A stretch of 64,000 nt of DNA. Origin: Pseudomonas sp. M30-35. Lineage in GTDB: Bacteria; Pseudomonadota; Gammaproteobacteria; Pseudomonadales; Pseudomonadaceae. The translations under genes and the position numbers were made by a program. Position 1 is the first letter of the stretch. Each line of letters begins with the position of its first letter. Below are positions 18,660 to 53,485 of the stretch, in pieces. The notes below the pieces were generated by a model. The model saw nothing but the letters and a program-made list of their open reading frames with translations. It had not been told where the DNA came from and made no database searches. The DNA lies in NCBI RefSeq assembly GCF_002163625.1, contig NZ_CP020892.1:620001-684000 (forward strand). Reading direction: 5' to 3'.

Positions 18660-18726
18660 AAACGTGGTCTGACCCCTATTTATTTAAACGTGGTCTGACC
18701 CCTATTTATTGCGACCCCTATTTATT
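18660..18726. repeat. Tandem GTGGTCTGACCCC repeat, transposon-associated type
   Basis: Two 25-base copies of AAACGTGGTCTGACCCC plus CTATTTATT start at 18660 and 18686. A shortened third copy (GCGACCCCTATTTATT) lies at 18711-18726. This sequence type is familiar around IS200-like or REP-associated transposases. The third copy runs into the predicted toxin reading frame. Confidence 0.75.
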
Positions 18727-19512
18727 GCGATCGGCGCCGCGGGAGCTTCACTGGCAAGTCCGGGAGCGGCTATGGGCGTTAGAGTTGCCCCTCGAATAGC
18801 CCCAAGCCTACCTCTATCGCGTCCACTGCCACCACGACTGCCAATGCCTCTGGCGCGACCTGCACCTCGGCCCATCCCGGAAACGTTACCGCGGTCACCT
18901 GCAAGGCCCGTACCTAGGCCAATTGCTGTCCCGCAAACCCGAACGGCAGACAAGGCTCAAGAACGTACACGCAACTGTGATAGCAAAAAGGATAAGGACT
19001 GTATCGATTGTCAACCTGCTGAGGGCACAATGTTGGCGCCCAACAATGGAAAAGGGCACTCGATGTCTAAACAGGCTGCGAGCTATCAGGCCTGGGTAAC
19101 AGGGTTTCCCTTTCCTTTTGAGTGGAGTTGGAACGCAACTTGGTGGGATGGGTTCGACGAGTTGCGCTGCACTCTACTTGAGGCTAAGGCGAACTACGAG
19201 TTTATGTTCATACCTATTATTGGGTTGCCGAAGCCGTGGGCTAATGTTGAAAAGACACTAATTGAACCTGCACGAAATCACTCGTCAAAAGCCAGGCCAA
19301 CTCCCCCGGTTAGAGTCGAGTGGCATTTCCTCCAGCGCATCGTCTATGAGTATTGTTCTGATAAGTATCTGAGTTTAGGACTAGCCAATTTGACAGCTTT
19401 TTGGAATCCCATGCCTGGAGCTTCAGATCACGAGGAATACCTGAAGGAGCGTGACCGTGAAAAGCGGGAGCTGGAAGACTACTACCGCGACAATCCAGAT
19501 CTTTTGGTCTAA
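18709..19512 (+). CDS. Tox-REase-5 nuclease toxin, TseT-like, possibly 5'-truncated
   Basis: Predicted DNase effector of the restriction-endonuclease fold, related to the P. aeruginosa type VI effector TseT. After a proline/arginine-rich linker (about 25-75) come a cysteine cluster (Cys90, Cys98, Cys101) and the toxin core. This has GHSM, the YQAWVTGF segment, DGFD at 147-150 and LLEAK with Glu158-x-Lys160, the PD-(D/E)xK catalytic pattern. The open frame begins at a TTG inside the upstream repeat, so its first residues may not be original. The ATG at 18772, preceded by GGGAG, is the better start. No PAAR, chaperone or secretion gene adjoins it. An immunity gene follows. Confidence 0.8.
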   Translation: MRPLFIAIGAAGASLASPGAAMGVRVAPRIAPSLPLSRPLPPRLPMPLARPAPRPIPETLPRSPARPVPRPIAVPQTRTADKAQERTRNCDSKKDKDCIDCQPAEGTMLAPNNGKGHSMSKQAASYQAWVTGFPFPFEWSWNATWWDGFDELRCTLLEAKANYEFMFIPIIGLPKPWANVEKTLIEPARNHSSKARPTPPVRVEWHFLQRIVYEYCSDKYLSLGLANLTAFWNPMPGASDHEEYLKERDREKRELEDYYRDNPDLLV

Positions 19513-27400: not shown

Positions 27401-29245
27401 TTACTCGTCGAGGAAGGAGCGCAGATGCTCGCTTCGTGTCGGGTGGCGCAACTTGCGTAGCGCCTTGGCCTCGATCTGACGAATACGTTCACGCGTTACA
27501 TCGAACTGTTTACCCACCTCTTCAAGAGTGTGGTCGGTATTCATGTCGATGCCGAAGCGCATGCGCAGTACCTTGGCTTCACGTGCAGTGAGGCCGGAGA
27601 GTACTTCGCGGGTGGCTTCCTTGAGACTTTCCACGGTCGCCACATCAATTGGCGATTGCATGGTGGAGTCTTCAATGAAGTCGCCCAAATGCGAATCTTC
27701 GTCGTCGCCGATTGGGGTCTCCATGGAGATCGGCTCTTTAGCGATCTTCAATACCTTACGGATTTTGTCCTCAGGCATTTCCATGCGTTCGCCCAGTTCT
27801 TCCGGCGTCGGCTCGCGTCCCATCTCTTGCAACATTTGGCGAGAGATGCGGTTGAGCTTGTTGATCGTCTCGATCATGTGCACAGGGATACGGATGGTCC
27901 GTGCCTGGTCAGCAATGGAACGAGTGATCGCCTGGCGAATCCACCAGGTTGCATAGGTCGAGAACTTGTAACCGCGACGGTATTCGAACTTGTCCACTGC
28001 CTTCATCAAGCCGATGTTGCCTTCCTGGATCAGATCGAGGAATTGCAGGCCACGGTTGGTGTACTTCTTGGCGATGGAGATAACCAGACGCAGGTTAGCT
28101 TCAACCATTTCTTTCTTGGCGCGACGTGCTTTAGCTTCACCGATCGACATGCGACGGTTGATGTCTTTGATTTCAGCCAGAGTCAGGTCGCACTCTGTCT
28201 GCAAAGCCACCAGCTTCTGCTGGCAACGCTGAATATCAGCAATGCGGGTGCCAATGGCTTCGGCGTATTTGGCCTTACCTTTAGCTATGGTCTCAGACCA
28301 GCTTTCGTCGATTTCATTGCCTGGGAACTGGCGAAGGAAATCAGCACGCGGCATGCGTGCATCGCGAACACAGATTTGCATAATGGCGCGTTCTTGACCG
28401 CGAAGGCGCGCAAGCGCGTCACGCAGACGAACAACCAGTGCTTCATACTGCTTAGGCACCAGCTTGATCGGCATAAACAGCTCAGCCAGAGCTTTTAGCT
28501 CAGCTTTTGCCTGCTTGCTGCTACGACCATGCTTTTTAAGCGCCTTGTTGGCGATTTCGAGCTGTTCAGCTACTGCGGTGAAGCGGCGAAGGGCTTCTTC
28601 CGGATCCGGACCACCGTCGCCTTCTTCTTCCTCGTCATCGCTGTCGTCGCTGTCGTCGTCATCGTCTTTGTCGTCTGCGCTATCGTCCTTTGCAGGAGTC
28701 GGGGCGGCAGCTTCGGCAGGCACGGTGCCGTCGTCCGGGTCAATATAACCACTGAGGACTTCAACCAAACGACCACCTTCGGTGGTTACGCGGTTGTATT
28801 CGGCAAGAATGCTGTCGACTGTTCCTGGGAAATGGGCAATAGCGCCCATAACTTCGCGGATGCCTTCCTCAATGCGTTTAGCGATTTCGATCTCGCCTTC
28901 GCGGGTAAGCAGTTCCACGGTGCCCATTTCACGCATGTACATCCGCACCGGATCAGTGGTGCGGCCGATATCGGTTTCAACGGCTGCGAGTGCTGCTGCG
29001 GCTTCTTCAGCGGCAGCTTCGTCGGTGTCGGCTTCAGCCAACAACAGAGCGTCCGCATCGGGAGCACTCTCGAATACGTTGATCCCCATGTCGTTAATCA
29101 TGCGGATGATGTCTTCCACCTGTTCCGGATCGGAAATATCCTCCGGCAAGTGGTCATTGACCTCCGCGTAAGTCAGGTAACCCTGCTCACGACCGCGGCT
29201 GATCAATTCTTTCAAACGAGATTGCTGTTGAGCTTTTACGGACAT
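27401..29245 (-). CDS. rpoD: RNA polymerase primary sigma factor RpoD (sigma-70)
   Basis: Housekeeping sigma factor that directs core polymerase to -35/-10 promoters. Its 614 residues match Pseudomonas RpoD. Region 1.1 is at the N-terminus. The non-conserved region carries a strongly acidic run (about residues 185-215). Region 2 has [15 protein letters not shown], and region 4.2 ends with [16 protein letters not shown]. It is the last gene of the rpsU-dnaG-rpoD order, 67 bases after dnaG, and is followed by a strong terminator. Confidence 0.98.
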
Positions 29246-43800: not shown

Positions 43801-44616
43801 TCACGTCGGGCTGCTTTCTGTGCTCTGTTCCACCAGTTTGTCGGCCAAGCGCACGAATGCTGCCAAGTCGAGCTGTTCTGGGCGCAGGCTGCCATCGACT
43901 CCTGCCGCTTCAATCTCACTGGCAGGCATTAAAGTCTTGAGCGTATTGCGCAAGGTTTTGCGGCGCTGGCTAAACGCTTCACGCACAACGCGCTCGAGCA
44001 GTTTGTGATCCTTGGCAGGGTGCGGCAGAACTTCGTGCGGCACCAGGCGAACAATGGCTGAGTCGACTTTAGGCGGGGGATTGAACGCCCCCGGGCCAAC
44101 ATTGAATAAGTGCTCAACTCGGCAGTGGTACTGCACCATGATCGATAACCGTCCCCAATCACCGCCGCCAGGGCCTGCGGCAAGACGCTCAACCACTTCC
44201 TTTTGTAGCATGAAGTGCATGTCACGTATCAGTGATGCATTGTTCAGCAGGTGGAAAATCAATGGGGTCGAGATGTTGTACGGCAAGTTACCAACTACTC
44301 GGAGGCTGCGTGGCTGCGCTTCAAGTCGATTGAAGTCAAACTTCAGGGCGTCACCCTGATTCAGGCGAAAGCGCGGTTCGCTGCCGAACTTGGCTTGCAG
44401 GATCGGGATCAGGTCTTTGTCGAGTTCAATTACATCCAGCTGTGTGCCGCTGTTGAGCAGGCCTTCAGTCAGGGCGCCTTGTCCCGGACCGATCTCAAGC
44501 AGGTGCTCGCCTTCTTTGGCGTGGATTGCGCGAAGGATGCGGTGGATCACGCCGGCGTCGTGCAGAAAGTTCTGGCCAAAACGTTTGCGCGCACGGTGTT
44601 GGTAACTCTCGGACAT
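43801..44616 (-). CDS. rsmA: 16S rRNA dimethyladenosine transferase RsmA/KsgA
   Basis: Dimethylates A1518 and A1519 in 16S rRNA late in 30S assembly. 271 residues with GQNFLHD, SAM motif EIGPGQGALT and catalytic NLPYNIS. The start codon and first codons (MSESY) are tandemly repeated upstream, giving two short frames each ending at the next ATG; the ribosome site GAGAG for rsmA lies inside the second repeat unit. Confidence 0.97.
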   Translation of the reverse strand: MSESYQHRARKRFGQNFLHDAGVIHRILRAIHAKEGEHLLEIGPGQGALTEGLLNSGTQLDVIELDKDLIPILQAKFGSEPRFRLNQGDALKFDFNRLEAQPRSLRVVGNLPYNISTPLIFHLLNNASLIRDMHFMLQKEVVERLAAGPGGGDWGRLSIMVQYHCRVEHLFNVGPGAFNPPPKVDSAIVRLVPHEVLPHPAKDHKLLERVVREAFSQRRKTLRNTLKTLMPASEIEAAGVDGSLRPEQLDLAAFVRLADKLVEQSTESSPT

Positions 44617-44650
44617 TAGTAACTCTCGGACATTAGTAGCTTTCAGGCAT
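44600..44650 (-). repeat. Three 17-bp tandem repeats forming minicistrons before rsmA
   Basis: On the minus strand, ATGCCTGAAAGCTACTA (from 44650), ATGTCCGAGAGTTACTA (from 44633) and ATGTCCGAGAGTTACCA (from 44616, rsmA itself). The first two read M-P-E-S-Y-stop and M-S-E-S-Y-stop, with each stop overlapping the next start as TAATG. Confidence 0.9.
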
Positions 44651-44782
44651 TAAAAGCAGCTTCAAGCGTCAAGCCAGGCTTAAAGCAAATATAAAGGCTT
44701 AGGGGTCGTTAGTTTAACAGGGAGTCAGCGCGCTGGCGTCGGTCATCATCGGCGAATGAGCGCAGAGTGGTTTAGCCCGTGA

Positions 44783-45778
44783 TTAACCGCGCAATTGGCT
44801 AGCGGCCATCGCATAGGCGGTTTGCAGGGCGACATCCAGGCTTCCACTGTCGATATTGCCACTGCCAGCCAGGTCCAGGGCGGTGCCGTGGTCGACTGAG
44901 GTGCGGATAATCGGTAGGCCCAGAGTGATATTCACCGCTGCGCCGAATCCTTTGAACTTGAGCACTGGCAAACCCTGATCGTGATACATCGCCAGCACCG
45001 CATCGCAATGGTCGAGATGCTTGGGGGTGAACAATGTATCGGCAGGGAGAGGGCCAATTAGCTGTATGCCTTCGGCGCGCAGGCGGTCAAGGGTGGGCTC
45101 GATGATTTCGATCTCTTCGCGGCCAAGGTGTCCGCCTTCACCTGCGTGGGGGTTCAGGCCACAGACTAAAATACGTGGGTTTTCGAGGCCGAACTTGGTG
45201 CGCAGGTCGTTGTGGAGGATGCGTGTGACACGGCTTAAGCGTTCGTCGGTAATCGCCTCGGCCACATCTTTAAGCGGTAGATGGGTGGTGACCAACGCCA
45301 CACGCAAGCCATGGGTCGCGAGCATCATTACCACTTGTTCGGTGTGCGTCAGCTCAGCCAGAAACTCGGTATGTCCTGAAAAGGCAATGCCTGACTGGTT
45401 GATCACACCTTTATGCACGGGGGCGGTAATCATCCCGGCAAAGTGTCCGTCAAGGCAGCCTTGGCCTGCGCGAGTCAGTGTTTCAAGCACATATCCGGCA
45501 TTGGCTGCATCCAGTCGGCCAGCAGTGACTGGTGTCGCTAAAGGGGTATCCCACACATACAGGCTGCCTGCGGGTGCGGGGCGGTCTGGCCACGCAGCAG
45601 GGCTGGTGCTGATTAAGCGGATATTCAAGCCGAGTAAAGCCGCACGCTCTGCAAGCAGGGTGTGGTTGGCAATTACAATGAGCGGATGGGGATGTGCTTG
45701 CTGGGCAAGCAGCAGGCATAGGTCGGGACCTATGCCTGCTGGCTCACCCGGCGTCAGTGCAAAGCGTTGCGCTGTCAC
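44783..45778 (-). CDS. pdxA: 4-hydroxythreonine-4-phosphate dehydrogenase PdxA
   Basis: NAD-dependent oxidation step of the DXP-dependent vitamin B6 pathway. 331 residues with the N-terminal [21 protein letters not shown], and the metal-site [11 protein letters not shown] and [10 protein letters not shown] motifs. It overlaps the surA stop by four bases. Confidence 0.97.

Positions 45779-52417: not shown

Positions 52418-53485
<1,068 letters not shown>

Follow-up and report, generated by a model that had tools for sequence, protein, structure and literature searches.

What accounts for a translation start that is immediately preceded by two further copies of itself? This question is raised by the rsmA gene in the 64,000-nucleotide stretch of DNA analysed here (hereafter the window). 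Between pdxA and rsmA, on the minus strand, a 17-bp unit running from TAATG to TAC is present in three tandem copies (44602..44652, read from 44652 to 44602), and the unit corresponds to positions −2 to +15 of rsmA, so that rsmA itself begins in the third copy. The minus-strand reading of the array region is ...CTTGAAGCTGCTTTTA ATGCCTGAAAGCTACTA ATGTCCGAGAGTTACTA ATGTCCGAGAGTTACCAACACC. Unit 2 and unit 3 (rsmA) are identical (17/17), unit 1 matches unit 2 at 13/17 positions, and TRF detects a period of 17 both in 44602-44638 (2.2 copies, 100%) and in 44602-44652 (3.0 copies, 88%). The two upstream units read as five-codon frames, i.e., minicistron 1, ATG CCT GAA AGC TAC TAA (MPESY; 44633..44650, minus strand), which would be the older unit and lie at the ancestral position of the rsmA start, and minicistron 2, ATG TCC GAG AGT TAC TAA (MSESY; 44616..44633, minus strand), the presumably recent unit with 17/17 identity to the rsmA start. 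A preliminary description of this DNA, which named no strand for the sequence, had reported a strict 17-base repeat upstream of rsmA and the same two peptides followed by a stop, and both observations are confirmed.

The stop codon of each upstream frame overlaps the next start codon by 1 nt, forming TAATG twice, at 44633 and at 44616. This geometry would permit a ribosome to terminate and reinitiate before rsmA, as had been proposed in the preliminary description. However, since 17 corresponds to five codons plus two bases and the unit leads with TA-ATG, both the stop and the TAATG overlap arise automatically from the duplication; the overlaps are set by the unit itself and therefore form a single observation together with the repeat, with no separate evidence of coupling. 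As 17 is not a multiple of three, the last copy is alone in frame with rsmA. We also scanned 444 kb of the window genome, made up of the window and 19 sampled stretches. There, 501 stop-to-stop frames spanning 150 codons or more, not every one of which is a gene, provided 1624 candidate starts (ATG or GTG within their first 80 codons), and the rsmA start alone is preceded, within 6-60 nt, by a copy matching at 15/18 or better.

The gene that follows the array is indeed rsmA (ksgA; 43801..44616, minus strand), as previously named. It encodes a 16S rRNA A1518/A1519 dimethyltransferase of 271 aa that matches the RsmA/KsgA model TIGR00755 with 282.8 bits (cut-off 171), and its N-terminus is similar in relatives. 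Among the 120 of 374 protein homologues listed, none starts with MSESY. The upstream gene is pdxA (44783..45778, minus strand; TIGR00557, 422.4 bits), and the whole cluster can be written surA-pdxA-rsmA-apaG-apaH, with a SurA match slightly below the model cut-off (385.3 bits for a cut-off of 394), an ApaH match above its model cut-off (312.4 vs 222.85) and an ApaG neighbour identified by profile match. Inside the pdxA-rsmA gap, a conserved extended −10-like box, TGTTAAACT (44711..44719, minus strand), possibly resembles an rsmA promoter, a candidacy suggested by conservation: the box is identical in G578, the closest relative found, and TAAACT or TAGACT occurs within 130 nt in 51/55 and 28/29 GGAG-type orthologs of two sets. 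A generic promoter scan found no promoter. A structured regulatory leader, which we also considered, received no support: the leader folds no better than its shuffled versions (z of +0.90 and +1.09), and an Rfam search gave no match at E up to 1.

The distribution of the unit was determined with 80 records of RsmA relatives (best-segment identity 83-91%) and with genus genomes. For 141 ortholog loci (the 80 records and 61 genus-genome loci, two genomes being present twice) and for a second set of 55 further loci, in which G578 is present again, we computed the self-similarity of the sequence preceding rsmA. Besides the window, G578 alone stands out, with 14/17 at a shift of 17; the next-best self-match is 12/17 among the 141 loci and 10/17 among the 55. 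Among 398 genus genomes, the exact two-unit pattern is present in that of the window and absent from the other 397, whereas a looser pattern centred on G578 and allowing three mismatches, searched in nearly the same genomes without that of the window, retrieved only G578 (1/397), with unit 1 alone. The TA that precedes the rsmA ATG is found in 4/398 family genomes, corresponding to the window, G578 and two genomes in which pdxA ends there. In the set of 398 genomes, 397 were matched (G386 was not) and 29 loci were read besides the window's own; in the set of 106 further genus genomes, 105 were matched (G679 was not), 50 of the matched junctions lie outside the loci read, and no third carrier of the unit was found among the 55 loci read. 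These genome draws overlap, span part of the genus and include no second strain of the window's species. The locus thus exhibits adjacent direct copies that include a start codon, with relatives devoid of them, G578 (14/17) apart, as in a start-spanning tandem duplication. The restriction of the exact 17-bp copy to one genome could also be produced by a sequencing or assembly error. We consider this scarcely credible, given that the genome is a single contig estimated at 100% completeness and that G578 independently carries the older, diverged unit.

In an rsmA tree of 75 rows, the window and G578 form a clade (100/100), and their neighbour is a group of 13 rows, drawn open, the joint group being supported at 81/81; the base composition of the window row is marked as unusual by the tree program. 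In all 13 rows of this sister group, a single ATG follows closely on GGAG, without any copy of the unit. More generally, GGAG is present within 28 nt of rsmA in 55/138 and 29/54 ortholog loci, and the loci without it have the end of pdxA within 60 nt (83/138 and 25/54). The presence of GGAG in orthologs and of a single ATG in the sister rows indicates that rsmA most likely started, in the ancestor, at the place of the first ATG of the window array, with GGAG as its ribosome site. As a side observation, the rsmA start adjoins the pdxA end in L024, L042 and other loci of the fluorescens/putida type, and, 17 nt ahead of the rsmA ATGACCGAG, this pdxA end often has ATGGCCGAG, a spacing that bears a weak likeness to the 17-nt spacing of the window.

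G578 shares about 85% DNA identity with the window (flanking pieces: 85.6% over 7.8 kb, 85.4% over 7.4 kb and 82.5% over 0.7 kb). Its junction reads CTTGACGCTTGGAGCTGCTTTTA AAGCCTGAGAGCTACTA ATGTCCGAGAGCTACC and contains a single upstream unit, the older one, with 14/17 identity to the rsmA start of G578 itself; minicistron 2 is absent. Unit 1 is the same at 15/17 bases in the two genomes, and one of the two changes affects the start codon, which is ATG in the window and AAG in G578, so that the peptide of unit 1 cannot start in the latter. Conversely, the ancestral GGAG is kept in G578, now 26 nt from the rsmA start, whereas GAAG occupies the same place in the window (44660..44663, minus strand). 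Between the −10-like box and the old start, the leader is identical at 62/74 positions, about the level of the flanks. Since unit 1 is common to both genomes, it is old, as had been suspected. Selection on the peptide, the alternative raised there, is not supported, and neither is selection on the minicistrons: the unit 1 start is AAG in G578, the two-unit state is confined to 1/398 genomes, unit 1 has drifted at about the rate of its flanks, and the predicted ribosome sites of the minicistrons are very weak (see below). In the sequences compared, nothing points to a selected peptide. The preliminary description had also mentioned a random duplication in a single strain as the outcome of a comparison with related genomes that would contradict it; such a duplication fits unit 2 in the genomes searched and does not fit unit 1. 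Altogether, the earlier interpretation is partly supported.

The strengths of the three starts were predicted by computation. The best anti-SD pairing, computed as the best energy in 8-nt windows, is −0.9 kcal/mol for minicistron 1, −0.9 kcal/mol for minicistron 2 and −3.3 kcal/mol for rsmA. In G578, the corresponding values are −2.7 kcal/mol for rsmA and −6.3 kcal/mol for the silent old site, and in orthologs the mean is −4.2 (n=138), with −5.6 to −6.5 for the GGAG-type (84/84). We also computed an RBS-type score, using a rough re-implementation of a published model type whose constants and 16S tail are uncalibrated for this organism; it gives −1.5 for rsmA, 7.7 for minicistron 1, 17.1 for minicistron 2 and 5.7 for the rsmA of G578. 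The window rsmA lies inside the range of the GGAG orthologs (median 0.12, from −3.6 to 9.2, n=55), and the other orthologs have a median of −0.40 (n=83). Of the three starts, rsmA has the strongest predicted ribosome site, the GAGAG of unit 2 (44623..44627, minus strand; −3.3 kcal/mol), located 6 nt before its ATG. This motif is a copy of rsmA codons 3-4 and is proposed here as a substitute Shine-Dalgarno. At the equivalent place in unit 1, the window has GAAAG (44640..44644, minus strand), a weak site for the minicistron 2 start (−0.9 kcal/mol), and the G578 counterpart is GAGAG (−2.7 kcal/mol). The earlier statement that a GAGAG in each unit serves the next start is therefore wrong for unit 1, which has GAAAG.

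The explanation that we favour, with moderate confidence, is that two start-spanning tandem duplications shifted the rsmA start, that GAGAG took over as a substitute site and that the minicistrons are mostly by-products. Two successive 17-bp duplications across the start (−2 to +15) would have placed the rsmA start 34 nt further downstream, each displaced start becoming a five-codon frame that closes in a TAATG overlap. We infer that the first duplication predates the split between the window and G578 lineages. Right after this event, a strong GGAG site, a five-codon frame and a TAATG would have formed a two-cistron leader. The old start would have been silenced later in G578 by the loss of its ATG and weakened later in the window by the loss of GGAG (GAAG there). 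Initiation at the first minicistron thus looks lost or weakened, by different lesions in the window and in G578, and, as these two lineages alone carry the unit, "weakened twice" amounts to two events. In both lineages, the rsmA ribosome site would now be the GAGAG of the upstream copy of codons 3-4, 6 nt before the ATG. The second duplication, seen in the window genome only, may have provided an intact GAGAG before rsmA, beside a first copy reading GAAAG. Since this duplication is exact, and both copies have AGT for the AGC of G578, it is probably recent and specific for the window lineage. In its present state, rsmA would start at 44616 with the GAGAG at 44627-44623, and the minicistrons would be little translated, with a minority of ribosomes possibly initiating on them and reinitiating at rsmA.

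The GAAG of the window most simply corresponds to one base change from GGAG. Another possible origin is the GAAG located upstream of GGAG in many relatives, left in place by separate deletions; under either origin, the window is without GGAG. A single 7-bp deletion removing the ribosome site was considered and rejected after comparison with G578: an upstream shortening of 14 nt, relative to the sister group, is common to G578 and the window, and this shared shortening plus a GGAG-to-GAAG change is preferred. The SD loss in the window may have come before or after the second duplication. The rsmA of G578 scores poorly (5.7) without a second copy, indicating that compensation is not obligatory. 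Other observations also count against the scenario of displaced starts and a substitute site: the rsmA site (−3.3 kcal/mol) stays weaker than GGAG, and minicistron 1 of the window retains both its ATG and its stop, which a dead remnant need not keep.

Neutral duplication accounts for the sequence nearly as well. Here, replication slippage would have produced copies with no selected effect on rsmA, tolerated since the last copy keeps the frame and enough initiation. The exactness of the second unit and its presence in one genome only speak for slippage, the drift of unit 1 (15/17) and of the leader (62/74) is close to the flanking identity of about 85%, and the leader has no special structure. 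Less easily accommodated is the position of GAGAG, 6 nt before rsmA in both lineages, when GGAG is either 26 nt off (G578) or absent (window). With GAGAG adjoining rsmA and GGAG distant or absent, initiation probably requires the copy, however the latter arose. We regard a purely neutral history as unlikely, while granting it appreciable weight.

A selected chain of two minicistrons, in which termination and reinitiation at the TAATG overlaps would tune how much RsmA is made, appears improbable to us. It draws on the two 1-nt stop-start overlaps, on the intact ATG and stop of both minicistrons in the window and on experiments in E. coli in which removal of the intragenic SD substantially cut reinitiation in four of the five gene pairs tested (PMC6728339). 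The overlaps, however, come automatically with a 17-bp unit that opens with TAATG; the upstream frame is not kept in the one relative that kept the arrangement, the first ATG being AAG in G578; the two-unit state is found in a single genome out of 398; and the ribosome sites predicted for the two minicistrons are not credible (−0.9 kcal/mol each, computed). No regulatory role for RsmA is supported by the sequences analysed here. To return to the scenario of displaced starts, reinitiation through the TAATG overlaps at a low level is possible, and, considering that SD removal reduced reinitiation in those gene pairs (PMC6728339), the same GAGAG would serve both direct initiation and a possible minor share of reinitiation.

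Erm methyltransferases, which are related to RsmA, are regulated by erm leader peptides, and RsmA methylation sets kasugamycin sensitivity. Autoregulation of ksgA in E. coli has also reportedly been described in the older literature, and no report of translational control of rsmA was found in the open-licence literature searched at title and abstract level. One could imagine a leader peptide of the erm type sensing the ribosome or a drug, or a coupled initiation of RsmA that tolerates kasugamycin. RsmA does match Erm models, coupled starts are described as less inhibited by kasugamycin, and the base before the start affects inhibition, G being the most inhibitable context and A and U the least (PMC8794815); all three starts of the array are preceded by A. 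Nevertheless, no peptide is conserved (the first start is lost in G578 and the second frame is present in one genome, as is the two-unit state), no special structure is predicted for the leader and Rfam gives no match, making both variants highly improbable.

Several components of this arrangement are known from other systems, i.e., coupling at overlapping genes, bicistronic leaders, tandem repeats before starts and start-spanning duplication in the laboratory. One precedent is argB in evolved E. coli, in which a 38-bp duplication is among the mutations selected upstream of the gene; the six mutations that were re-introduced increased ArgB by 2.6-8.2-fold while the mRNA changed little (PMC6941894). 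From the coordinates given in that paper, we computed that the duplication (4145912-4145949) includes the start codon at ~4145925. As in the rsmA unit, the duplication is short, spans the start and has a length of 2 modulo 3. It differs by its laboratory selection and its single round, and the authors explain most effects by mRNA structure, with less hidden mRNA around the ribosome site, and not by a copied SD-like motif (PMC6941894). The rsmA case, by contrast, is natural, would have occurred twice and was apparently followed by the loss of the site or codon of the old start. Overlapping gene pairs (ATGA/TGATG; PMC6728339) resemble the array by a stop-start overlap on one mRNA and an SD-like motif in the upstream frame, whereas the rsmA frames have five codons, are copies of the start of the downstream gene, have weak predicted sites and are not conserved. 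The leaders of bicistronic designs share a short first cistron and resemble the state that would have existed right after the first duplication (PMC5995908), but the rsmA leader is natural and originated by duplication, and initiation at its first cistron looks lost or weakened since. Finally, the TAACTGA heptamers of Beggiatoaceae are direct repeats arranged in tandem in intergenic DNA, just before start codons, and overlap the place where a ribosome site is expected (PMC4679880); they form a 7-bp family with little SD character present at many genes, whereas the rsmA array concerns one gene and its 17-bp unit contains both a start codon and an SD-like motif. We found no natural start-spanning duplication supplying a new ribosome site in the open-licence literature, searched mostly at title and abstract level. 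What appears to be new here is the natural occurrence, the two rounds and the loss of the old start's site or codon in two lineages.

If the scenario of displaced starts is correct, the locus keeps two visible stages in the replacement of a ribosome site by a copy of codons 3-4, and G578 is close to the intermediate stage. It would then provide a natural example of how translation starts move, beside the laboratory case of argB (PMC6941894). We tentatively, and with more doubt than conviction, extend this to a general route of start-site migration, in which the old start turns into a coupled five-codon minicistron, selection removes or weakens it, an in-gene GAG-AG becomes the new site and repeats of the process walk the start downstream; if true, this would be a concrete natural route for the birth and movement of ribosome sites and start codons. 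In any case, tiny frames with stop-start overlaps need not be regulatory minicistrons, given that they arise automatically after a start-spanning duplication.

Other short tandem repeats are present in the window. Two overlapping perfect arrays at 18660-18730, with periods of 26 bp (2.0 copies) and 16 bp (2.1 copies), share GACCCCTATTTATT; starting at 18660, the phrase AAACGTGGTCTGACCCCTATTTATTT occurs twice. Imperfect 9-bp GTCGTCGCT repeats of up to 4.7 copies are located at 28634-28675, and a perfect microsatellite of 13 GTT repeats (39 bp) is located at 52729-52767.
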